Below, piece by piece: positions 5,552 through 20,241 of a stretch of DNA of 36,082 nt. The translations under genes and the position numbers were made by a program. Position 1 is the first letter of the stretch. Each line of letters starts with the position of its first letter. Below the pieces are notes generated by a model. That model did not search any database, had not been told where the DNA came from, and was given only the letters and a program-made list of their open reading frames with translations. Source of the DNA: Planctomycetota bacterium (GTDB lineage Bacteria > Planctomycetota > Brocadiia > CAIUPP01); the NCBI GenBank assembly GCA_022705425.1, contig JAKJEM010000025.1, positions 7,174-43,255 on the forward strand, in the 5' to 3' direction.

Positions 5552-7411
5552 ATGAGCGAAAGCGCCTCGGAAGGTTCCCCCGCGCGGTGGTGGGCGTGGC
5601 GCATCATCGCCGCGTCCGCAGGGGCGCTATTCGTGGCGCTGGCGGTCTTCGTCTGGTACCCCCACTGGCGCGACGCGCGCCTCCAACGCACCTTGACCGA
5701 GGCCGACAACCTCTTCCAGACCGGGCGCGCCGAGGCCGCCCTCTCGCACTACGAGCGCTTGCAGCAGGACCACCCCGGCGTCTGGGCCTCCGACCGCGCC
5801 CTGGAAGAGAGCCGCAAGCTGCGCCGGTACATCGCACAGGCCGCCGACCTGAAGGCGCAGGCCGACGAGGCATACAAGGCCACCCGCTTTGAGGCGGCGC
5901 TGACGCTCTATCGGCGGCTGGTCGAGGAGTACCCCCGCAGCGCCAAGGCGCGACTGGCGCGCGCGGAACTGGACGGCTGCCTGGCGCGGGCCAGTGAACA
6001 GGCGCGCGATGCCGTACGCGCAGCCATCGCCGAGCGCCGCTTCGATCACGCCGCCGACCTCTGTGAAAAACTGGGCCGCCTGAACCCGGCCTTCGCGGAA
6101 CTGCCCGCACTGCGTCAGGCGGTGGAGACGGAACGCCGGCGTTACGCCGAACCCCTGGCGCGCGGCGCAGAGGCGGAAAGGGACGGTCGCTGGATGGACG
6201 CGCGCCGAGCCTATGAGCAGGCGCTGGCGGTCGTGCCCGGAGACCCAGCGGCCACCCAGGGCCGTCTGCGCGCCTTGCAGCGAATTCCTCCCCCGCCGGG
6301 GATGCGCCTGATTCCCCCCGGCGACTGGCCCGCCCAACCAGGGCGCGCGCAGCACTGCCCCGGCCTCTACCTCGACGAACGCGAGGTCACAAATGCGGAC
6401 TATGCCCGCTTCACCGCCGCCACCGGACGACGCCCTCCCCCCACCTGGCACGGGCCGCAGCCGCCCGCCGCGCTGGCCGATCTGCCCGTCGTCTGCGTCT
6501 CCTGGGAGGACGCCGCCGCCTACGCCGCCTGGGCCGGCAAGCGCCTGCCCGCCGCCTCCGAATGGGAGCGCGCCGCGCGCGGCCCGGAGGGGCGGCGCTA
6601 CCCCTGGGGCGACACCTTCACCGCACGCGAGGCGGTCTTCGCCCGACGACCCGCCCCGGCGGGAAGCGCCCCGGCGGACCGCTCCCCTGAAGGTTGCCTG
6701 GACCTCGGCGGCAACGTTTCCGAATGGGTCGCCCCCGACGACGGAGCACCCCTGCCGACCGGCTGGAAACCCCTGCGCGGCGCCTCTTGGGCGGGGCTGG
6801 AGCAGGGCCGAACGGAACACATCGTGCCGTGGCGTCGCGCCGTCATCTCCTCCGATCCCCAACGCACCGTGATGACCGGCCTGCCCGACCTGTGGGGCAT
6901 CGAAGCGCGTGCGCTAGTGGATGTCGAGTTCTTCTTCCGCGGCCTGGCCGGGGAGTCGGCCATCATGGAGATCCGTCGCTGGGTTCCCGACCTGCGCCGG
7001 GCCGTGACGACAACGGCCCTCATCGCCCCCGGCGGCGACATCGCCGTGGAACGCACCGTCCCCCTCGAAAACGCGGCAGACGGGCGGACCACGCGCGTGC
7101 GCCTGGAAACGGGACGACGCCTCCTGCGCATCGAGGGCGACGAACAGACCGGGCCGCGCGCGCTGTGCGCCGAGGCCGACGGAACGCCCTTCACCCTGCC
7201 GTTGAACCGCCGCGCGGAGAGCGAGGGACTGCTCCGCGCCGCGGAAGGCGTCGCCGACGCAACGCCCCCCGACGCCGCGTTCGAGGCGCTCACGCGCATT
7301 CTCTCCGCAGCCCCCCTCGCCGACGCCGCGCGCGCCGCCACACCCCGCGCCGCACCGGGCGTGGCGCGCTTCATCAACGTCGGCTTCCGCTGCGCGCGCG
7401 GACTGGATTAG
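5552..7411 (+). CDS. Membrane-anchored TPR protein with an interrupted formylglycine-generating-enzyme-like domain
   Basis: A 619-residue protein. A TM anchor (about 16-35) is followed by TPR-like helical repeats (about 42-245, for example ADNLFQTGRAEAALSHYERL). The SUMF1/FGE-like domain begins near 250: DEREVTNADYARF, VVCVSWEDAAAYAAWAGKRL, PAASEWERAARG, YPWGD, GGNVSEW (387-393), LRGASW (408-413). In ordinary members the closing strand with GFRCA follows soon after. Here it appears only at the extreme C-terminus (NVGFRCAR, 609-616), after about 190 residues, so an extra domain seems inserted. The paired catalytic cysteines of true FGE are not seen, which suggests a binding or structural role rather than sulfatase activation. 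I chose ATG 5552 because GGAGAGG lies upstream and the promoter -10 overlaps the earlier ATG. It is convergent with the heparinase-like gene. Confidence 0.85.
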   Translation: MSESASEGSPARWWAWRIIAASAGALFVALAVFVWYPHWRDARLQRTLTEADNLFQTGRAEAALSHYERLQQDHPGVWASDRALEESRKLRRYIAQAADLKAQADEAYKATRFEAALTLYRRLVEEYPRSAKARLARAELDGCLARASEQARDAVRAAIAERRFDHAADLCEKLGRLNPAFAELPALRQAVETERRRYAEPLARGAEAERDGRWMDARRAYEQALAVVPGDPAATQGRLRALQRIPPPPGMRLIPPGDWPAQPGRAQHCPGLYLDEREVTNADYARFTAATGRRPPPTWHGPQPPAALADLPVVCVSWEDAAAYAAWAGKRLPAASEWERAARGPEGRRYPWGDTFTAREAVFARRPAPAGSAPADRSPEGCLDLGGNVSEWVAPDDGAPLPTGWKPLRGASWAGLEQGRTEHIVPWRRAVISSDPQRTVMTGLPDLWGIEARALVDVEFFFRGLAGESAIMEIRRWVPDLRRAVTTTALIAPGGDIAVERTVPLENAADGRTTRVRLETGRRLLRIEGDEQTGPRALCAEADGTPFTLPLNRRAESEGLLRAAEGVADATPPDAAFEALTRILSAAPLADAARAATPRAAPGVARFINVGFRCARGLD

Positions 7412-7462: not shown

Positions 7463-10400
7463 CTACTCCGCCCGCAGGAAGACCGTCCCCCCGGCCAGGG
7501 CCGCTTCGTCGAGGACGCAACGGGCCTCGCTGTTCTGAAGGGTCGCTTCCAGGTCCCGCCACGTCTCGCCGTCGGCGCTGATCTTCAACCCGCGACGCGC
7601 AGGCAGCACGACCTCGACGGGGGCGTTGGCCGTCAGCCGCCAGCGCCCGGGCGCCTCCCGCAACAGGGAGGCGTACGGCGTCACAAGCACCCGATGGCCG
7701 GGGCCGAAATGATAGACGTGGAACTTCGCCAGTCCGTCGCCGTCGGCGTCGGTGAAGTCCTCCACGCGCGCCCCCGCGTCCTCCGGCAGCGTAAAAGCCC
7801 CCATCTTGCCGGGCATGACGGAGGTCGAAATCCATTCCCCGGCCTCATTGACGATGTCGCCGCCGGCGTAGCTGCGCGTTCCGGCGTAGCCTGCCGGGAG
7901 CTTGAGGGGCTGGAAGGTGAAGCTGCGAAGGTCCGCGTCCACCTTGAGCACCTCCACGCGCATGTCCTCCTTCCACTCGCCGTGGGACTTGATGAGCAGC
8001 GTCCGCTTGCCGTCGCCGTCGGCATCGGGCACGCGCTCCCAGGAGATCGCCCCCCCCATGCGCGCGCCGCCGCGGAAACTCGTTCCCATCCAGCGGACGC
8101 TGCCGGCGTCGGCGTCAAGGACGGTCCAACCCTTATCGCCGCGCTCGTTTTCGAGCCACCCGCCGACCTGCTGGTGCTCCGGCTCAACGGGACCGACAAT
8201 CTCGCGTCCGTTTCGGACAAGAAGGACCGGAGCGCGGTAGGTCTCGGCGGTCTTGGCAAAGTGCAGGACGGTCACGCCGTCGCGGGACTCCGCGCGCTCG
8301 ATACGGAAGGGCTCCGCTCCCGGCCCGGCCAGAACCGTCGTGCCGGCGAGCAGCGACGACGGCAGCGCCCGATCGAGTCGCGCCTCGCGCTTGCGGTGAT
8401 CCACGGCGGCGATCACGGCCTCGAGGACGGGCGCCTTCAGGCGCAGAGCGATGCCGCGCGCCTGCACCTCGGGACCGCCGACCAAAGCGCACGCGCGCGG
8501 GCCCGCCGCGTCAAAGGACAGGAAGGCGAAGCGCCCGGCGGCCTCGATGCCTCCCTGCGTCTCGATGCGGGCGCGGGCGGCGGGGTCGGCCGACTGATAG
8601 AAGAGGTCGCGCCGGTCCTTGCCGACCTGAACGGCCAGCGCCACCGGCGCCCCCGCCGCCCCCGCGCGCAGCGGCAGCCGCTGCACACCGGAAAGGAAGG
8701 GCTCGCCGGCAAAGGGCTCGATTACGGCGGGGAAGACGGAAACGGCCTCCGGCGCCTTCTCCTCGGTCACGCCGACGCAGAGGATGCGGTATTCCACCTG
8801 CTCGCTCGTGGCCACGACCGTCTTGACGCGCCGCCCCTCGGACCCGGACAGAAAGAGGCGGGTGAACTTGCGAGGGGCGTTCTTGTCGAAGGCCGCATCC
8901 AGGCGCTTTCCGCGCTCGGACGGGAACATGCGGAGGCGGCCGACCATGCGCTCTTCCATCACGCGGTCCAGCGGCCATACGGCCTGATAGAGGTCGCCGG
9001 GAACGCGTCCGTTGTCGGCGGGCAGCAGGTTATGCGCGAAGGCCTGCTGGCTGTAACGGAAGGGCGGGCGCGGCGCCTTGGCGGCCTCCTCGCCGAGGAG
9101 GTCGGCCATGGCGTCGGCGGCCTGCTTCTTCTGCGCCCCCTTCTTCTCATAGTACTCGACCGCGTCGGGCGTTTCCATCGCCTCCGTCTGCTGGCCGTGG
9201 AACCAGTAGGTGCGCTCGCGCCCGCCGGACGCGCGGACGACGTCGAAGAGGTAGGCCTCGTCGCCGGGACCGTCCACCAGCGCCACGAAACGGCGCGCGG
9301 CGATCTCCTTCTCCCCCCCGCCGAAGCCCGCCTCCATGCAGGGCACGCCGGGCAGGTGCGCCACAAGATTCAGCGTGGCCGTCCGCACGCGCCCGTCCAC
9401 CGTCACCAGGCAGTGGCTCTCCGGCGCCGTCGTGGGCGGCTTGCCGTATCCCGGACGCCCGCCGAACTCCGGCAGGGCCACGAGGCCCTTGGAGAAGACC
9501 TCGAGGTTGAGGCTGTCGGCGTGGGAATGGCCGGCGCCGTAGCCCGCGCGCATGACGACGCCGGTGCGCCTGCGGAAGTCCGGCTCGCCGACGCGGTTCT
9601 CCAAGATGCCGACGCCGAAGCCCTCCAGGGCGCGCGAGGGCAGCGTCTGACGCGGGTCCTGGGGAATGGCGCGCGCGGCGGCGCGCACGGCCTCGGCGTC
9701 CGCCTTCGTCGCGTAGTCCGGGAGACCGTACACCCGGTCGAGCATCCAGGCGAAACGGGCGTCGCCGTAATGCCGCCAGGCCTCCAGGAGGACCATCTGC
9801 GCCGTCTCCGGTTCCTCGCCGTAGGTCATCGTCGGGGTGCCGGTGGGACCGGAGACATCGCCCACGCCGTTGACGTGGACGCCGGCGGTGTAGGGTTCGA
9901 TCAGCCACAGCGCGGCCTGATGAAGGATCGGCGTGCGCCCGTGACGGACGAGGTCGAAGGCGTCGGCGTTGACGCGCCGGGCGAAGCGCGTCACCTCGGC
10001 CAGAGCCGCCCCGGACCCCAGCGACGGCCCCTTGGCGTAGTACATCGAGCCGATGAAGGACGTGGAATCGCGGCTGCGCTTGCAGGTGAGGGTGTCCAGA
10101 AGGGAGGCGAACTGGTAGTCGGACTGGTGCGTAATGCGGCGCAGCATCTCGCGTCCGGCTTCGTTGTCCCCCTGCACGAGGGCGATGGCCGGCTCGCAGC
10201 GCAAGGAGGAGAAGCGAATCTCGCCCCGCTCGCTGACGTCGAAGAAGTGCTGGACGAGTTTGACATCGAGCAACTCGACAAGGTCCTGGGGCGTCTTCAC
10301 CCACGGGATCGTCTGCCCGACGGCCTCGGCGAGGGCGGCGTTGTCCTTGATGAAGGGGAAGAGCTTGTCGTAGGACATCACCAGCGGCATGTTGTCCTTG

Positions 10401-11803
10401 CCGGCCCAACCGGAGTAATCGAGCTTGCCGAACTCCCCGGCGTGGTTCCCCCGGAAGCAGTTGAAGGGATGCGTCCCCCAGGTGGCCAGCATGGTGCTCT
10501 GGACGGTGTAATCAAGGCTGGGGAAGGCATCGGCAAAGTGGGCCAGCATCACGGCCGCGTCGAAGGCGGTGCGCGGGTCGCCCGTCTCGTAGTACTGGTC
10601 GGCCAGGCGCTCAATGCGCGACCGCAGCGCCACCCAGCGTCCCTTGAAGGCCACCGGCAGGATGTTGAAGTAGAAGTTGTGCCCCATCTTGCCCGCGCGT
10701 TCCTTGGGCGAATAGTACCCGCCGCCGTCGTCCGGCCAGCGTCCGGGAAGGGGACGGAAGAGGGCGTAGTCTCCGGCCTCATAGCGCCCGACGGGGCCGG
10801 GCTTCTCCGTGCCCCAGTTGAACTCAGGCTTGTGCGCCGGAGGAACGCCGAAGCTGACGCCGCGGGCGCCCTTGGGTTCCGGCATGGGAATGTCGAGCTC
10901 GCGCTTGCGCGTCCCCGTCGCCGCCGCAACCTCGAAGGGATCGGCCTCCGGCAGCGTCGGGCCGGTCATCACCCACGGCTCCGTGAGGACATCGTTCATG
11001 CGCCAGAGCCAGCGATCCGCATTCGGCTCGGAAAGGCCCTCCGTGCCGAGGCGGAACTCCTGATAGTAGCCCTCCGTCGGCATCCCCCCGCCGGCGATGA
11101 GGGTGTTGCGCGGCGGAAAGGCCGCCGCAATGCCCCGCGCGCGAGCGAGGGCGTCGGCGGCGGGATAGGGCTCGCGGACGGCCTTGCCGCTTTCGAGATG
11201 GCGCGGCGCGGTGTAGATGCCCGACTCGCGCTTGAAGCCCTTCTTCCAGGTCCCCGCGAGAACGTCGCGCAGTTCCAGCCGGTCCACCAGCAGATCAAAG
11301 GCGCTCCCCGGCCCGAGGCTGAAAGCCAGATCGTACTCCCCCGCCGCGTTCGCGTCGAAGTAGAGGTGCGCGACATCCTGGTGCATGCCCGCCATGTAGT
11401 TCACGCGCATCCGCCACTGGGCCGACGTCGCCCCGCCGGGCCCGATGGCGGGGCCTTTCACGGCAAGGTGGACGTACATCGGCTCGCGGTAGGCGGAAGG
11501 GTTCTTCTCCGTTCGCGCAATGCACCAGAGGGAGTACGTGCCGCGTTCCAGCCGCCGCGTGATGCGCAGGGCGCTCCCCCCCGCCTTCAGGCGAACGACC
11601 CGCCCGTTAGCCGCGCGAGGATCGGGAAGGATGTCCTCCGCCGGCAGACCGGGGCACTCCTCCGCCTCGAAGGCCGCAACGAGGGCCGGCGGACGGATGA
11701 AGGCCTTCACGGCGTGGTCCGTCAGCGTGAAAGCCTCGGCGCTGACGGCGGCAAGCAGGACGCCGGTAAGCGCCACGAGGGCACGGCGACACGATGGATT
11801 CAT
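7463..11803 (-). CDS. Large secreted heparinase II/III-like protein
   Basis: A 1446-residue protein with a signal peptide (MNPSCRRALVALTGV, cleavage after about AEA). The middle of the protein carries a long helical region with the pattern of an alpha/alpha toroid. It is followed near residue 755 by GYGAGHSHADSLNLEVFS and shortly after by CLVTVDGR, the heparinase II/III catalytic-domain signature (conserved His in a beta-sandwich). Such enzymes cleave uronic-acid polysaccharides by beta-elimination. The last 500 or so residues are beta-rich and not recognised; they include Asp-rich segments (VPDADGDGKR, FTDADGDGLAKF) that look like calcium-binding or dockerin-like loops. It is about twice as long as typical PL12/PL21 enzymes. 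I chose ATG 11803 over a GTG at 11833 because of GGAG upstream and the clean signal peptide. The substrate is unknown. Confidence 0.8.
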   Translation of the reverse strand: MNPSCRRALVALTGVLLAAVSAEAFTLTDHAVKAFIRPPALVAAFEAEECPGLPAEDILPDPRAANGRVVRLKAGGSALRITRRLERGTYSLWCIARTEKNPSAYREPMYVHLAVKGPAIGPGGATSAQWRMRVNYMAGMHQDVAHLYFDANAAGEYDLAFSLGPGSAFDLLVDRLELRDVLAGTWKKGFKRESGIYTAPRHLESGKAVREPYPAADALARARGIAAAFPPRNTLIAGGGMPTEGYYQEFRLGTEGLSEPNADRWLWRMNDVLTEPWVMTGPTLPEADPFEVAAATGTRKRELDIPMPEPKGARGVSFGVPPAHKPEFNWGTEKPGPVGRYEAGDYALFRPLPGRWPDDGGGYYSPKERAGKMGHNFYFNILPVAFKGRWVALRSRIERLADQYYETGDPRTAFDAAVMLAHFADAFPSLDYTVQSTMLATWGTHPFNCFRGNHAGEFGKLDYSGWAGKDNMPLVMSYDKLFPFIKDNAALAEAVGQTIPWVKTPQDLVELLDVKLVQHFFDVSERGEIRFSSLRCEPAIALVQGDNEAGREMLRRITHQSDYQFASLLDTLTCKRSRDSTSFIGSMYYAKGPSLGSGAALAEVTRFARRVNADAFDLVRHGRTPILHQAALWLIEPYTAGVHVNGVGDVSGPTGTPTMTYGEEPETAQMVLLEAWRHYGDARFAWMLDRVYGLPDYATKADAEAVRAAARAIPQDPRQTLPSRALEGFGVGILENRVGEPDFRRRTGVVMRAGYGAGHSHADSLNLEVFSKGLVALPEFGGRPGYGKPPTTAPESHCLVTVDGRVRTATLNLVAHLPGVPCMEAGFGGGEKEIAARRFVALVDGPGDEAYLFDVVRASGGRERTYWFHGQQTEAMETPDAVEYYEKKGAQKKQAADAMADLLGEEAAKAPRPPFRYSQQAFAHNLLPADNGRVPGDLYQAVWPLDRVMEERMVGRLRMFPSERGKRLDAAFDKNAPRKFTRLFLSGSEGRRVKTVVATSEQVEYRILCVGVTEEKAPEAVSVFPAVIEPFAGEPFLSGVQRLPLRAGAAGAPVALAVQVGKDRRDLFYQSADPAARARIETQGGIEAAGRFAFLSFDAAGPRACALVGGPEVQARGIALRLKAPVLEAVIAAVDHRKREARLDRALPSSLLAGTTVLAGPGAEPFRIERAESRDGVTVLHFAKTAETYRAPVLLVRNGREIVGPVEPEHQQVGGWLENERGDKGWTVLDADAGSVRWMGTSFRGGARMGGAISWERVPDADGDGKRTLLIKSHGEWKEDMRVEVLKVDADLRSFTFQPLKLPAGYAGTRSYAGGDIVNEAGEWISTSVMPGKMGAFTLPEDAGARVEDFTDADGDGLAKFHVYHFGPGHRVLVTPYASLLREAPGRWRLTANAPVEVVLPARRGLKISADGETWRDLEATLQNSEARCVLDEAALAGGTVFLRAE

Positions 11804-11868
11804 GCGGAAGCTCCAGCCGGCGGGATGCGCCACCAGGACATCTCGGGAATGACGTTCGACACGACAAC

Positions 11869-13292: not shown

Positions 13293-14678
13293 ATGTCCGC
13301 CTCACCCGACGACCGGACGCCCCCCTCCCAAGCCGACGAGGGCCTGATCGAACCCTGCGTCAACTACGTGCGCGACTACTTCACCCAGCGCACGATCCAC
13401 CCCGACCAGTTGCCCGACATCATGTTCAAGCACATCTACACCGGGGCGATGGGCAACGTGTGGGGCACACTGATCGCGGGCGTCTTCTTCGTCTATTTCG
13501 GCAACGCCATCGGCCTGACGAAGTTCGAGTGGGGCATCCTGAGCGCCGTGGGGTCGTGGGTGCTGCTCTCGGAAGTCCTCTCGGCGGCTATCACCCAGCG
13601 CGTGGGACACCGCAAACTGCTGTGGTTCATCTGCGCCTTCTCCGATCGCAGCATCCGCTTCATGGCGATCATGGCCTCGCTGCTCCTGTGGCACATGGGC
13701 TGGCCGCACGCCGGCCTCGTGCTCGTCTGCTCGATCACCCTGGCGACGTGCCTGGGCGCCATGGCCGGCCCGCCCTGGCTCTCCTGGCTGGCCGACCTCA
13801 TCCCGGAAAAGGAGCACGGCGAGTTCTGGGGACGGCGCTCGGCATGGGTGAACCTCGCGGTGGTCTGCGCCATGCTCCCGGCGGCCCTCTACATGGACCG
13901 CCTCCCCGAGGCGACCAAACTCACCGTCACGATCTGGATCTTCGCGCTGGCGACGGTGATCGGACTGCTGGACCTCGTGATCCACGGCACCATCCCCGAG
14001 CCGAAGATGACGCGGCCCCGCGATCCCCACTTCTTCCGGCAGTTCCTCACCCCCCTGCGCGACCGGGGCTTCCGCCCCTTCCTCATCTTCTGCTTCTGCT
14101 GGACCTTCTCCGTGATGATCGGCGCGACGCTGCTGACCGTTTACATCATGGAGGACCTGGGGGGAAAGCGGAACCTCTTCGGGACCTCGCTGGCCACGGT
14201 GGGCGCCTATCTGCTCGGCGGGGTGCTGACGGCGCGCTGGACCGGTGCGCTCGTGGACCGCTGGGGGCCGAAGGCCGTCATGCGCTGGGGGTACCTCTTC
14301 TGGGCGCTGATCCCCTTCTCCTGGTTCTTCCTCACGCCCGCCAACGTGCTGTGGATCATCGGCGCGGTCAACCTGGTCGCCGGCTTCTTCGTCACCGCCG
14401 CCGCGAACGGCGCCCTCAAGATCCAGACGCGCTACCCGCCCCCCTCCCACCGCGCCATGTACATCGCCGTCTCCAACTGCGCCAACTACGTGGCCGCCGG
14501 CCTCGCCGCGCTGGCCGCCGCCTTCATGGCGCGACACCTCGAACACTGGACCTGGACGCTCGACCGGCTCACCTTCACCTCCCTCGACGCCTTCGCGGCG
14601 GTGTCGCTGGTCCTGCGTGTGGCAACGGCAATCCTGCTCATCGGGCCGATCCGCGAGCATGGAGAGGACAAGTCATGA
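13293..14678 (+). CDS. MFS transporter
   Basis: A protein of about 461 residues with roughly 11-12 hydrophobic segments, for example TLIAGVFFVYFGNAIGL, WVLLSEVLSAAI, GLVLVCSITLATCLGAMAG, FLIFCFCWTFSVMIGATLL and WIIGAVNLVAGFFVTAAA. There is an MFS-like cytoplasmic loop (ALVDRWGPKAVMRWG) in the second half. The substrate cannot be named. The frame is open to a GTG at 13227, but I favour ATG 13293 (MSASPDD), which starts a hydrophilic N-terminus; neither start has a good Shine-Dalgarno. The UroD-like gene starts 17 bp downstream with a strong ribosome-binding site, so the two are probably co-transcribed and may handle the same compound. Confidence 0.8.
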   Translation: MSASPDDRTPPSQADEGLIEPCVNYVRDYFTQRTIHPDQLPDIMFKHIYTGAMGNVWGTLIAGVFFVYFGNAIGLTKFEWGILSAVGSWVLLSEVLSAAITQRVGHRKLLWFICAFSDRSIRFMAIMASLLLWHMGWPHAGLVLVCSITLATCLGAMAGPPWLSWLADLIPEKEHGEFWGRRSAWVNLAVVCAMLPAALYMDRLPEATKLTVTIWIFALATVIGLLDLVIHGTIPEPKMTRPRDPHFFRQFLTPLRDRGFRPFLIFCFCWTFSVMIGATLLTVYIMEDLGGKRNLFGTSLATVGAYLLGGVLTARWTGALVDRWGPKAVMRWGYLFWALIPFSWFFLTPANVLWIIGAVNLVAGFFVTAAANGALKIQTRYPPPSHRAMYIAVSNCANYVAAGLAALAAAFMARHLEHWTWTLDRLTFTSLDAFAAVSLVLRVATAILLIGPIREHGEDKS

Positions 14679-14694
14679 ACCGGAGGAGTCCATC

Positions 14695-15711
14695 ATGACC
14701 AAACGCGATGTCGTGCAGCGGGTCTTCGAGGGCAAGCGCCCACCCTATGTCCCCTGGAACCTGAGCTTCACCCACGAAGCCCGGCGCAAGCTCGTCGAGT
14801 ACGCGGGCACGGAAGACCTCGAACCCCTCCTCCAGAACCACCTCCTCGTCCTCGGCAGCGACATGGGCTTCTTCGAAGACATCGGCGGCGGATGCGTCCG
14901 CGACGTCTTCGGCGTCACCTGGGACCGAAGCGTGGACAAGGACATCGGCGTCGTCAAGGGCTGCGTCCTGCCGGAGCCGACACTGCGCGGCTACCGCTTC
15001 CCGAACCCCGTGGATGCCCGCTTCTTCCAAGGCTCGCGCGAGCGCATCGCGCGCCACGGCGACCGCTTCCGCGTCTTCTCCATCGGCTTCTCCCTCTACG
15101 AGCGCGCCTGGACGCTGCGCGGAATGGAGAACCTGATGCTCGACTTCATCGAGCATCCGGACTTCGTCGAGGAGTTGCTCAACGCCATCGCCGACTACAA
15201 CATCGCCCAGATGCGCGAGGCGCTGAAGTATGAGATTGACGCCATCCACTTCGGCGACGACTGGGGCCAGCAGCGCGGACTGCAAATGGGACCCGCCACC
15301 TGGCGGCGCTTCATCCTGCCCGTGCTCCGCCGCATGTACTCCGTGGCCCGCCAGGCGGGCAAGTTCGTCTCCATCCACTCCTGCGGTGACGTGGACGAAC
15401 TCTTCGACGACCTCGTGGACGCCGGACTGAACTGCTTCAACCCCTTCCAGCCCGAGGTGATGGACGTCGAGTCTCTCCTGCGGCGCTATCGCGGACGGCT
15501 GGCCTTCTACGGCGGCCTTTCCACACAGCGCACCCTGCCCTACGGAACCCCCGGCGACGTCCGCGCCGAGACGCAACGCCTGCTGCGCCTCGGGGCCGAT
15601 GGCGGCTACATCTTCGCCCCCGCCCATTCCGTGGAAGGGGACGTGCCGCTGGAGAACATGCTGGCCTTCATCGAGGCGCTGAAGAAGCAGCGCGGGTTCG
15701 CCCCGAGCTGA
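14695..15711 (+). CDS. Uroporphyrinogen decarboxylase-like protein (UroD/MtaA/CmuA superfamily)
   Basis: A 338-residue TIM-barrel protein. Recognisable segments: KRDVVQRVFEGKRPPYVPWN at the N-terminus, AIHFGDDWGQQRGLQMGP (middle), SIHSCGDVDELFDDLVDAGL (about 224-243), NPFQPEVMDV, and the C-terminal GGYIFAPAHSVEGDVP. This pattern is typical of the large bacterial family of UroD-like proteins, which includes corrinoid methyltransferases and many paralogues of unknown function, rather than haem-pathway HemE. GGAGGAG lies 8 bp upstream of ATG 14695. Its 3' end overlaps the convergent small membrane protein gene by 44 bp. Close linkage to the MFS gene suggests catabolism of an imported methylated or aromatic compound, but this is inference. 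Confidence 0.85.
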   Translation: MTKRDVVQRVFEGKRPPYVPWNLSFTHEARRKLVEYAGTEDLEPLLQNHLLVLGSDMGFFEDIGGGCVRDVFGVTWDRSVDKDIGVVKGCVLPEPTLRGYRFPNPVDARFFQGSRERIARHGDRFRVFSIGFSLYERAWTLRGMENLMLDFIEHPDFVEELLNAIADYNIAQMREALKYEIDAIHFGDDWGQQRGLQMGPATWRRFILPVLRRMYSVARQAGKFVSIHSCGDVDELFDDLVDAGLNCFNPFQPEVMDVESLLRRYRGRLAFYGGLSTQRTLPYGTPGDVRAETQRLLRLGADGGYIFAPAHSVEGDVPLENMLAFIEALKKQRGFAPS

Positions 15712-17344: not shown

Positions 17345-17373
17345 ACTATACGGAAGCGGCGGCGGGGAGTCAA
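17345..17373 (-). promoter_or_regulatory. Predicted promoter for icd
   Basis: On the minus strand: TTGACT (17373-17368), a 17-bp spacer, and TATAGT (17350-17345). Transcription would start near 17338, about 30 nt before the icd start codon. Confidence 0.65.
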
Positions 17374-17418
17374 GAATGAGCGCCCAGGCCGGAAGAGTCC
17401 GCCAGGACGCGCCCTCTG

Positions 17419-17448
17419 TTGACGCCCCGCCGAAGACGGGCATATAAT
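17419..17448 (+). promoter_or_regulatory. Predicted promoter for guaA
   Basis: TTGACG (17419-17424), an 18-bp spacer, and a perfect TATAAT (17443-17448). Transcription would start near 17455, about 45 nt before guaA. It is divergent from the icd promoter with the -35 boxes about 45 bp apart. No guanine or PRPP riboswitch fits in this short leader. Confidence 0.65.
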
Positions 17449-17498
17449 CCGGCCCATGTGACCGCTGTCGCCATCTCGTCCTGACCGGAGGGCGTCCC

Positions 17499-19046
17499 TT
17501 GGACCTGCCTCACGAGACCGTGCTGATCCTGGACTTCGGCTCGCAATACGTGCAGTTGATCGCGCGGCGCGTCCGCGAACAGCACGTCTATTCCGAAATC
17601 GTGCCGCATACAATCACCGCCGCCGCCATCCGCAAGCGGGCGCCCAAGGGGTTGATCTTCAGCGGCGGCCCGGCCAGCGTCTATACCAAGGACGCCCCCC
17701 GCTGCGACCCCGATATCCTCCGCCTCGGCATCCCCATCCTGGGCATCTGCTACGGCATGCAGCTCGGCGCCACGCTGCTGGGCGGCCAGGTGAAGTCCGC
17801 CCCCGCGCGCGAGTTCGGCCGCACCACCCTGCACATCCTGCGCCACGAGAAGCTCCTCGCCGACCTCCCCGGCGAAATGACGGTCTGGAACAGCCACGGA
17901 GACCAGGTGGACGGGATATCCGAGGACTTCATCCCGATCGCCCGAACCGCCACCTGCCCTGTGGCGGCCGTCAAGCACCGCACAACCCCCTTCTACGGCG
18001 TCCAGTTCCACCCCGAGGTCTCGCACACCCCCCAGGGCCCGGCGCTGCTGGCGAACTTCCTGACGACGATCTGCCAGTGTCGCGGCGACTGGCGCATCCG
18101 AGCCTTCATTGACGCCACCGAGGCCGACATCCGCAAGAAGGTCGGCCGCGCCCACGTCGTCTGCGGCCTCTCCGGCGGCGTGGATTCCTCCGTCGTCGCC
18201 ATGCTCTGCCACCGCGCCATCGGCAAGCAGCTTCACTGCATCTTCGTGGACAACGGCCTCCTGCGCCTGAACGAGGCGCAGAGCGTCGAGAAGACCTTCC
18301 GCGACCACTTCAAGATGGACCTGATCGTGGCGGACGCGCGTCAGTTGTTCCTCGACCGCCTCCGCGACGTGGTGGACCCCGAAAAGAAGCGCAAGATCAT
18401 CGGCCACGCCTTCGTCGAAGTCTTCCGCGAAAAGGCGCGCGCCATCCCCGGCGCGCGCTTCCTCGCCCAGGGCACCCTCTACCCCGACGTGATCGAAAGC
18501 CGGTCGCCCACCGGCGCGCCCTCGGCCACGATCAAGACCCACCACAACGTCGGCGGCCTGCCGGCCGAGCTGGGCTTCGACCTGGTCGAGCCTCTGCGCG
18601 AGCTCTTCAAGGACGAGGTGCGCCAGATCGGCCTCGAGTTGGGAATGCCCGAGGACATGGTCTGGCGGCAGCCCTTCCCCGGCCCCGGACTGGCCGTGCG
18701 CATCTGCGGCGAGGTGACCGCCCAGCGCCTGGACATCCTGCGCAAGGCGGACGCCGTCGTCCTCGATGAGATTCGGAAGGCCGACCTCTACCGCAAGCTC
18801 GGACAGAGCTTTGCCGTGCTCGTCCCCGTCAAGTCCGTCGGCGTCATGGGCGACGAACGCACCCATGAAAACGTCCTCGCCGTCCGGGCGGTCGAAACGG
18901 TGGACTACATGACGGCGGACTGGGCGCGCCTGCCCTACGACGTCCTCGCCCGCATCTCGAACCGCGTCATTAATGAAGTGCGCGGCGTCAACCGGGTGGT
19001 GTACGACATCTCCAGCAAGCCCCCCAGCACAATCGAGTGGGAATAA
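17499..19046 (+). CDS. guaA: GMP synthase (glutamine-hydrolysing)
   Basis: A 515-residue enzyme that converts XMP to GMP using glutamine and ATP. The N-terminal class I glutamine amidotransferase domain starts with ILDFGSQY and carries C84 (GICYGMQ), H171 and E173 (FHPEVSH). The ATP pyrophosphatase domain has the P-loop SGGVDSS (225-231). The C-terminal dimerisation domain contains [10 protein letters not shown] and ends with the characteristic KPPSTIEWE. The length is standard. The start is a TTG at 17499, chosen because homology begins six residues later, GGAGGG lies 6 bp upstream, and no ATG or GTG fits. The oxidoreductase gene follows after 16 bp, so the two probably share a transcript. 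Confidence 0.97.
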
Positions 19047-19062
19047 CCTGGGACCTCGACCC

Positions 19063-20241
19063 GTGATCAACCTTGGCCTTCTCGGCTGCGGCCTGCGCGG
19101 AATGTACCTCGCGCGCGCGATGGGCCAGGACCCGCGCGTGCGCATTTCGGCCCTCTGCGACCTCGACGCCGAACGACTCGAGATCGCCCGCCGCCAGTCC
19201 GAACGCTTCGCCCCGCGAACTTACGCCCGCAGCGAGGACTTCCTCCGCGACCCGCAGCTCGATGCCGTGATTGTGGCCACCCATGACGCTGCCCATGGAC
19301 GCAACGGTCTCGATGTCCTCCGCGCCCGGAAACACCTCTTCCTCGAAAAGCCCATGGCGCAGACGATCGCCGAATGCGACGCCATGATCGCCGAATGGAA
19401 GAAGGTCCGGACCGTCTTCATGATCGGGCTTGAACTGCGCTACTGCTCCCTCTGCGAACAGATGAAGAAGATCATCGAGGACGGCCGCATCGGCGAAGTC
19501 GTCCTGGGCTATGCCGTGGACAACGTCTCCGTCGGGGGGCAGTATTACTTCCACGGGCCGCGACGGAAGAAGGACTACATCCTCTCCCTCGTGCTCGAAA
19601 AGGGAACCCACACTCTGGACCTGATGAACTGGTTTATCGGCTCCTCGCCGAACCGGGTGTACTCCGAGGGCGGACTGAACGTCTTCGGACGGACGGCCCC
19701 CGCCGACAAGCGGTGCCGCGACTGCGACGAAGCGGCGGCCTGCCCCTACTTCGTTTCGCATACCAAGGGCATGAAGATGGACTACGGCGAGCAGACCCTC
19801 CAACAGCCCGACCTGTGCGTCTATGGGCGCGACGCCGACGTCCACGACAACTCGGTGCTGACCGTGCGCTACGCCAACGGCGCGCGCATGACCTATGTCG
19901 AATGCCACTTCACCCCCGACTACACCCGCGAGTTCACCCTCATCGGAACACGCGGGCGGATGTACGGCTTCTACAACAACCAGCAGAACTTCCGCATCGA
20001 ACTGACCTGGCGTCACTCCCCCGCCAAGGAGGTGCTCTACCCCGAGCGCCGCCCCGGCGGCCACGGCGGCGGCGACCCCGGAATCCAGAAGGAGTTCCTC
20101 GATCGCGTCGAAGCCGGAAACCCGTGCGCCTTCGGCGTACGCGGCGCGCGCGACAGCGCGGCCATCGCCATCGCGGCGGCCGAGTCCGCCGAGAACGGAC
20201 AGCCCGTTACTCTGCCCCCCTCCCCCGACGGCATTGAGTAA
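19063..20241 (+). CDS. Gfo/Idh/MocA-family NAD(P)-dependent oxidoreductase
   Basis: A 392-residue protein. The N-terminal Rossmann fold has LGLLGCGLRGMYLA and ends its second strand in CDLDAERL. The family's EKPMA motif lies near residue 105, and the presumed catalytic region is KGTHTLDLMNWF. In the middle is a cysteine cluster, CRDCDEAAACPYF, seen in a subgroup of the family and possibly metal-binding. Members oxidise or rearrange sugars and cyclitols; the substrate is not predictable. The start is a GTG at 19063, just before the Rossmann strand VINLGLLG; the frame is open further upstream but only inside guaA. The ribosome-binding site is weak (TGGGA). It lies 16 bp after guaA with no functional link evident. 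Confidence 0.88.
   Translation: MINLGLLGCGLRGMYLARAMGQDPRVRISALCDLDAERLEIARRQSERFAPRTYARSEDFLRDPQLDAVIVATHDAAHGRNGLDVLRARKHLFLEKPMAQTIAECDAMIAEWKKVRTVFMIGLELRYCSLCEQMKKIIEDGRIGEVVLGYAVDNVSVGGQYYFHGPRRKKDYILSLVLEKGTHTLDLMNWFIGSSPNRVYSEGGLNVFGRTAPADKRCRDCDEAAACPYFVSHTKGMKMDYGEQTLQQPDLCVYGRDADVHDNSVLTVRYANGARMTYVECHFTPDYTREFTLIGTRGRMYGFYNNQQNFRIELTWRHSPAKEVLYPERRPGGHGGGDPGIQKEFLDRVEAGNPCAFGVRGARDSAAIAIAAAESAENGQPVTLPPSPDGIE

Follow-up and report, generated by a model that had tools for sequence, protein, structure and literature searches.

A predicted beta-domain nested within the FGE/C-type-lectin fold of a planctomycetal membrane protein and of related Ser/Thr kinases

The stretch of DNA analysed here (the window: 36,082 nucleotides of contig JAKJEM010000025.1, assembly GCA_022705425.1, from a Planctomycetota bacterium) carries a gene for a 619-residue membrane-anchored protein whose FGE-like domain begins as expected but ends far too late, and the question that this locus raises is what lies in between and whether it belongs to the domain at all. 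Pfam FGE-sulfatase (PF03781) covers residues 262-394 (E 1.8e-32, 113.4 bits against a cut-off of 23.3), the RGASW motif starts at residue 409 and the closing GFRC motif starts only at residue 611, nine residues from the end, leaving a gap of 202. An earlier note, made from the sequence by itself, had picked out this segment (window positions 6791-7372, which are residues 414-607 of the open reading frame (ORF) starting at 5552) and held that the domain was normal as far as RGASW with its closing motif displaced to the very end. This was borne out by a comparison set of 44 ORFs, taken from 46 loci in the same genome, in its relatives and in named genomes, that matched FGE at E up to 1e-8; in these the corresponding RGGSW-GFRC gap was 27-36 residues in 39, 10 in one (probably a chance motif) and not measurable in four. 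The gap is 201 in an orthologue from the other genus of the family and 183 in a kinase paralogue encoded in the same genome, and so it is not an assembly error.

Residues 246-619 were modelled with AlphaFold2 (14 sequences; mean pLDDT, the predicted local distance difference test score, 70), giving an FGE core that was mostly confident and a beta-domain and C-terminal end that were confident, and Foldseek and VIA-align put this model in the FGE family. FGE, CalU17, PorK, EgtB, PvdO and TvpA (a protein of a diversity-generating retroelement, DGR) all aligned with it from model residues 1-4 to 373-374, over about 199 residues and with Z scores of 20.7-22.4. Because these solved structures align up to model residue 374, the GFRC strand closes the FGE fold in the model, as the earlier note had supposed of its closing motif, and the beta-domain is nested inside it; the sequence alignment likewise has the FGE fold picking up again at about residue 585. 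We regard this nested anatomy of the modelled protein as well supported. The protein thus resembles the FGE-sulfatase family in matching its profile above the cut-off and in sharing its fold, closing strand included, but differs in that RGASW and the RxAxR/GFRC end are set apart by some 165-190 extra residues, which include a separately folded domain, and in having no cysteine in the catalytic loop. Modelled alone (21 sequences), the insert reached a mean pLDDT of 88 and showed seven strands. What had been described as about 190 beta-rich residues with a helical end therefore needs some correction: the beta-domain is there and the second linker was modelled as low-confidence helices, but only about half of the segment (residues 459-550) appears to be folded.

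A protein search of 58 genomes (this genome and 57 relatives) found a full-length orthologue in the genome G001, with 39% identity across residues 7-618, as well as two longer relatives, one in this genome and one in G001, which align over residues 24-529 and 9-537. Both longer relatives are Ser/Thr kinases (Pkinase matches of 9.8e-52 for the paralogue in this genome and 6.7e-54) that also carry a double zinc ribbon (DZR), an FGE domain and a transmembrane segment near residues 650-690; by Pfam, the window protein lacks the Pkinase domain that its paralogue carries along with the same insert. The four inserts, from two genera, align with conserved motifs, and a profile made from them matched over its full length in this genome and G001 only among the best first-look candidates of 75 genomes of the class and 392 of the phylum, where no further case of nesting inside an FGE domain was found. 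The insertion is thus not the normal state of FGE homologues at large, but it is normal in its immediate subfamily, these four proteins. As kinase and non-kinase types occur in both genera, a duplication, or two events, would predate the genus split. In the G001 kinase gene (G001:C49; near 8030-8299 of locus L113) there is a frame break ahead of the closing motif; the motif itself can be read in a different frame, and the break may be an assembly error or real.

Planctomycetota kinases with periplasmic TPR or sulfatase-modifying-factor domains have already been described (PMC11032199), and the paralogue in this genome is a transmembrane kinase of this kind, with the window protein as its kinase-less counterpart, but the nested beta-domain is a feature of the family here and the available passages of that paper mention no insert; the words 'fge' and 'formylglycine' are absent from its text. 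The transmembrane anchor and TPR array that had been read from the sequence are both present (Table 1), the TPR matches lying about at their cut-offs. Their combination with an FGE domain is not unusual by itself, going by the same passages (PMC11032199). Among the open-access papers listed, none mentioned in its title or abstract opening either this domain or an insertion into an FGE domain linked to a kinase, and what is new here is a nested, traceable and unnamed domain in an FGE/C-type-lectin (CLec) protein.

From residue 414 onward there was no Pfam or NCBIfam match at E up to 1, so that the segment was rightly called unrecognised as far as named families go, but relatives of it could be found by profile. 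The insert-only profile matched ten further genomes of the phylum (12 of 392 with any match), with E-values per genome of 1.2e-8 to 6.8e-6 in six and 6e-5 to 7e-3 in four. Seven of these matches (L125-L127 and L130-L133) are to a protein which we call protein X, with the motif V[RK][RK]W.P, GExIG, VDFsTGc.L in its C-terminal part; its N-terminus, where present, resembles a transmembrane segment and its middle reads, by eye, like FN3 (Pfam fn3 matched weakly, and in three other X-like proteins only). In the class, the insert profile gave any match at 0.01 in 4 of 75 genomes, and the weak ones among them (G064, G058) are proteins X of other families, not FGE proteins. Comparison of the insert with the protein X domain by hhalign gave 98.7% over 76 columns (although A3, one of the profiles compared, had been collected with the other, A1), and from such sequence comparisons we consider the insert core to be homologous to the C-terminal domain of protein X. 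Two other matches (L128 in G140 and L129 in G095) are domain relatives at the C-terminus of HEAT-repeat proteins. L134 (G228) proved to be the tail of an FGE protein without the insert, and L011 (C243, E 0.033) was taken as a chance match.

Pfam PilM_2 and/or Secretin matches stood beside all seven proteins X found by the insert profile, among the neighbours scanned (PilM at L136, L138, L139, L140, L141 and L142; Secretin at L141 and at L137, which ends at a contig end and has Secretin only). In this genome the order on contig C254 is miaA (IPPT 5.4e-72), PilM (7.5e-29), a transmembrane protein, protein X, a 952-residue repeat protein and a TPR-Secretin protein (1.2e-22), and the class members G028 and G007 have consecutive pilM, transmembrane protein, protein X and secretin genes. 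In each of the two family genomes the gene that separates the domain protein from the secretin-type gene codes for a long repeat protein of low complexity (L135:5656-8511 on the minus strand and L179:9054-11354 on the plus strand), and the repeats differ, being Thr-rich units in one and KQDKLAADKAAA-like in the other.

Wider profiles extended this picture. With 13 sequences the domain was found in 52 of 75 class genomes at 0.001, once per genome except for three matches in each of the two family genomes, and with 21 sequences in 86 of 392 phylum genomes at 1e-4. A census of neighbours outside the class, made with profiles built here, took in 40 of the listed loci, several of which end at contig ends: 29 had a PilM-like and/or secretin-like neighbour (13 both, 13 PilM-like only and 3 secretin-like only, the secretin match of L261 being weak and on the opposite strand) and 11 had neither, while none of the 40 had an FGE match. 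The domain is therefore found mostly in pilM-secretin operons, with nesting in FGE confined to this family in the genomes searched. Four of the 11 loci with neither neighbour (L238, L243, L246 and L254, in G200, G115, G153 and G134) carry zf-HC2 on the domain protein, two of them with FecR as well, and in these anti-sigma-like proteins the domain again sits at the C-terminus; the other seven gave no match or a weak fn3-type match only.

The earlier note had not seen the catalytic cysteine pair of true FGE, and indeed there is no cysteine across residues 383-538. Human FGE Cys336 and Cys341 are named as mutated residues in structures among the matches listed, and they lie just after RGGS. In related CLec proteins the stretch from beta3 to beta5 is described as a putative ligand site, part of which superposes on the FGE catalytic site (in the portion of PMC6328139 available), and since a whole domain occupies this stretch and the cysteines are missing, the FGE part may well be a dead scaffold. 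The fold is found also in PorK/GldK, a ring lipoprotein of the type IX secretion system, where it serves a secretion machine and is not an enzyme; PorK (9p6h_B) is among the closest folds to our FGE model (Z 22.0 over 198 residues).

The computations show directly that the domain is nested, that four proteins from two genera share this arrangement, that the core of the insert is homologous to protein X and the other carriers, and that a transmembrane Ser/Thr kinase of this genome has the insert too; the function of the nested domain can be approached from these only by inference. We think it probable that a catalytically dead FGE/CLec domain has received, in its ligand loop, an extracytoplasmic beta-domain with a binding or sensing role. 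The domain, commonest at the C-terminus of protein X, lies in the loop that leads from the RGASW strand to the RxAxR/GFRC end, and its move would have been into the FGE fold, not out of it. The protein would be anchored in the inner membrane with its TPR, FGE and insert regions outside, the FGE part acting as a scaffold that displays the beta-domain beyond that membrane, and the insert may present a binding face to an envelope partner, which the distribution of the domain suggests is the pilus/secretin machinery or a ligand common to such envelope proteins. The kinase paralogue might then respond to binding by signalling in the cytoplasm, and the window protein, which has no kinase domain, could serve as a co-receptor, as a scaffold or partner, or as a competitor. 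Many bacteria reuse FGE/C-type-lectin folds as binding scaffolds, and for most planctomycetal kinases little is known of what their extracytoplasmic parts sense, so a full second domain with traceable relatives in the ligand loop offers a concrete hypothesis on what such a receptor binds. Naming the domain would also help to annotate many genes, as it is unannotated both in the pilM-secretin operons of the phylum and in the anti-sigma-like proteins.

Several observations weigh against this interpretation. It rests on computation, and the insert's own fold gives no functional clue, since neither the PDB nor a viral library yielded a match to its model at E 0.001; the best VIA Z score was 3.0, to unrelated chains, where this tool's typical best Z without a clear match is 7 to 8. 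The neighbours scanned around the window gene and around the kinase genes included no pilus or secretin genes, and the sulfatase neighbour in G001 is easier to reconcile with an enzymatic role. The wider profiles (A7 and A9, of 13 and 21 sequences) include seeds found by the insert profile, and per genome only the best first-look candidates were scored (up to 41 in the class, up to 8 in the phylum and up to 11 with the 21-sequence profile), which makes the absences incomplete. A tree of the domain had long branches and was poorly resolved; the FGE rows need two changes in it, one change was found in only 4% of 200 bootstrap trees, and 7 of 500 shuffles were as low. Finally, a hydropathy scan gave no transmembrane segment in 4 of 11 domain proteins (protein X L177 and the zf-HC2 proteins L238, L246 and L254), and so the description as a membrane protein is supported for some carriers of the domain but not for every one.

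The alternative that survives best, though we consider it rather unlikely, is that the insert is a secretin-docking domain like the C-terminal domain of PilP or the homology region (HR) of GspC, by which the window protein and the kinase would monitor, or attach to, a type IV pilus or type II secretion machine. In classical operons pilP lies between the pilM/pilN-O and secretin genes. The commonest home of the domain in our genomes is a gene in just this position, between pilM/pilN-O-like and secretin genes, and like its proposed counterparts it is a small beta-domain. The PilP C-terminal domain binds the N0 domain of PilQ and shares its fold with the GspC HR (according to the part of PMC3441751 available). 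With E-values of up to 10 allowed, the domain genes of 12 genomes matched neither PilP (PF04351) nor GspC HR/T2SSC (PF11356). PilP gave two weak matches elsewhere, and 0 of 14 control genomes had one over the cut-off, which makes this a weak control, while the T2SSC protein that this genome does possess lies over the cut-off on another contig (C225, 4.6e-17). By hhalign (three sequences) the likeness to GspC HR was no greater than in 10 shuffled controls. The Foldseek and VIA matches listed included neither PilP nor GspC chains, although this is not decisive, and some proteins with the domain have neither pilM nor secretin genes beside them. Sequence thus does not support placing the domain in PilP or GspC, and with no signal from profiles or hhalign it is gene position that carries the PilP analogy.

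A broader idea, to which we give less credence again, is that this widespread domain links envelope machines to transmembrane signalling as a general adaptor. It would do so in the secretin-operon protein, in anti-sigma-like factors and, inserted in one family into an FGE/CLec ligand loop, in a receptor kinase and its kinase-less partner, so that kinase and anti-sigma pathways would both use it to read what state the pilus/secretin machine is in.

Returning to the displayed binding or sensing domain that we prefer, two further alternatives to it seem very improbable. In one the protein would be an active enzyme of FGE-like or EgtB-like type with the insert as its regulatory lid, the fold being common to FGE, EgtB, OvsA and PvdO and the insert lying at the catalytic loop. 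The kinase-FGE gene of G001:C49 is directly followed by a sulfatase gene (L113:8590-9936, plus strand; PF00884 at 9.4e-39) that contains a CTPSR stretch, which would suit this, but the catalytic cysteines are missing from the window protein, and the neighbours scanned around the window gene and around the kinase gene of this genome included no sulfatase. In the other, with similarly little in its favour overall, the likeness between insert core and protein X would be convergent, both being generic small beta-barrels and the insert being of local origin. The domain is short and diverged, the window insert being 16-23% identical to the protein X sequences, and the protein X of this genome is a weak match to the insert profile (0.0025). 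However, the motif V[RK][RK]W.P ... GexI ... DFxTGc.L is shared in the same order, the six matches below 1e-5 in 392 genomes compare with 0.004 expected by chance at that threshold, and the same operon gene was hit in 7 of the 10 matches. Searches against PDB sequences added little, the insert giving nothing of use (a single chain at E 1) and the A7 profile two matches (E 0.5 and 0.78).

Less probable still is that the FGE/CLec domain is the target of a DGR and the insert an unusually large structural one near a variable region. FGE-type CLec folds are used by DGR variable proteins, such as AvpA and TaqVP, that have segments inserted between core elements, AvpA having one between beta4 and beta4' (PMC5006420 and PMC6328139, both in part); this insert 4 (residues 120-179) lies just ahead of the variable region and is perhaps in the same stretch as the one here, but the insert here differs in being a self-standing domain with relatives in other proteins. 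Parts of it are conserved across genera. The genome has two reverse-transcriptase (RVT_1) matches (G000:C224:10109-10564 and G000:C68:3014-3241), both on contigs other than that of the window gene, and no template-like copy was seen in the draft assembly: the closing 172 bases had no long near-copy in its 288 contigs, the best other match being 31 bases at 90%. Chimeric assembly or a frameshift can be dismissed almost entirely, since, although the assembly is a draft and the reading frame of G001:C49, among the four proteins, is broken before its closing motif, the window gene is open throughout, the same architecture recurs in the paralogue and in another genus, and the orthologue refutes such an artefact for the window protein.

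Table 1. Features of the window gene and its protein, with window coordinates
Feature	Position in window	Strand	Basis
Gene for the 619-residue protein with transmembrane, TPR and FGE regions and the nested domain	5552-7411	+	ORF and translation
Single transmembrane helix, residues 15-37	5594-5662	+	Kyte-Doolittle hydropathy, mean up to 2.22 over 19 residues
TPR-like region	5870-6241	+	Pfam TPR_6 (107-130) and TPR_2 (203-230), both about at curated cut-offs
FGE/C-type-lectin fold, first part, residues 246-413, RGASW at its end	6287-6790	+	Pfam PF03781; mostly confident AlphaFold2 core
Linker 1, residues 413-456 (44 residues; model residues 168-211)	6788-6919	+	AlphaFold2 pLDDT <50
Insert core, predicted seven-stranded beta-domain, residues 459-550 (about 92 residues)	6926-7201	+	Two models and homology to the protein X C-terminal domain
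Linker 2, residues 555-596 (42 residues; model residues 310-351), low-confidence helices	7214-7339	+	AlphaFold2 pLDDT <50
Closing FGE strands with NVGFRCA, residues 599-619	7346-7408	+	pLDDT 64-90 by blocks; structural alignments

Adjoining the gene in the window is an ORF of 1456 residues (7463-11833, minus strand) with no Pfam match at 0.001, and three further ORFs of 329-591 residues on the same strand (13302-14660, 14638-15627 and 17370-19145) were likewise without a match at this threshold. The gene itself lies beside RNase Y and other unrelated genes, and the scanned neighbours of the window and kinase genes together comprise those for RNase Y, an M42 peptidase and the shikimate, leucine and isoleucine-valine pathways, with a DsbD-like protein and the sulfatase in G001.
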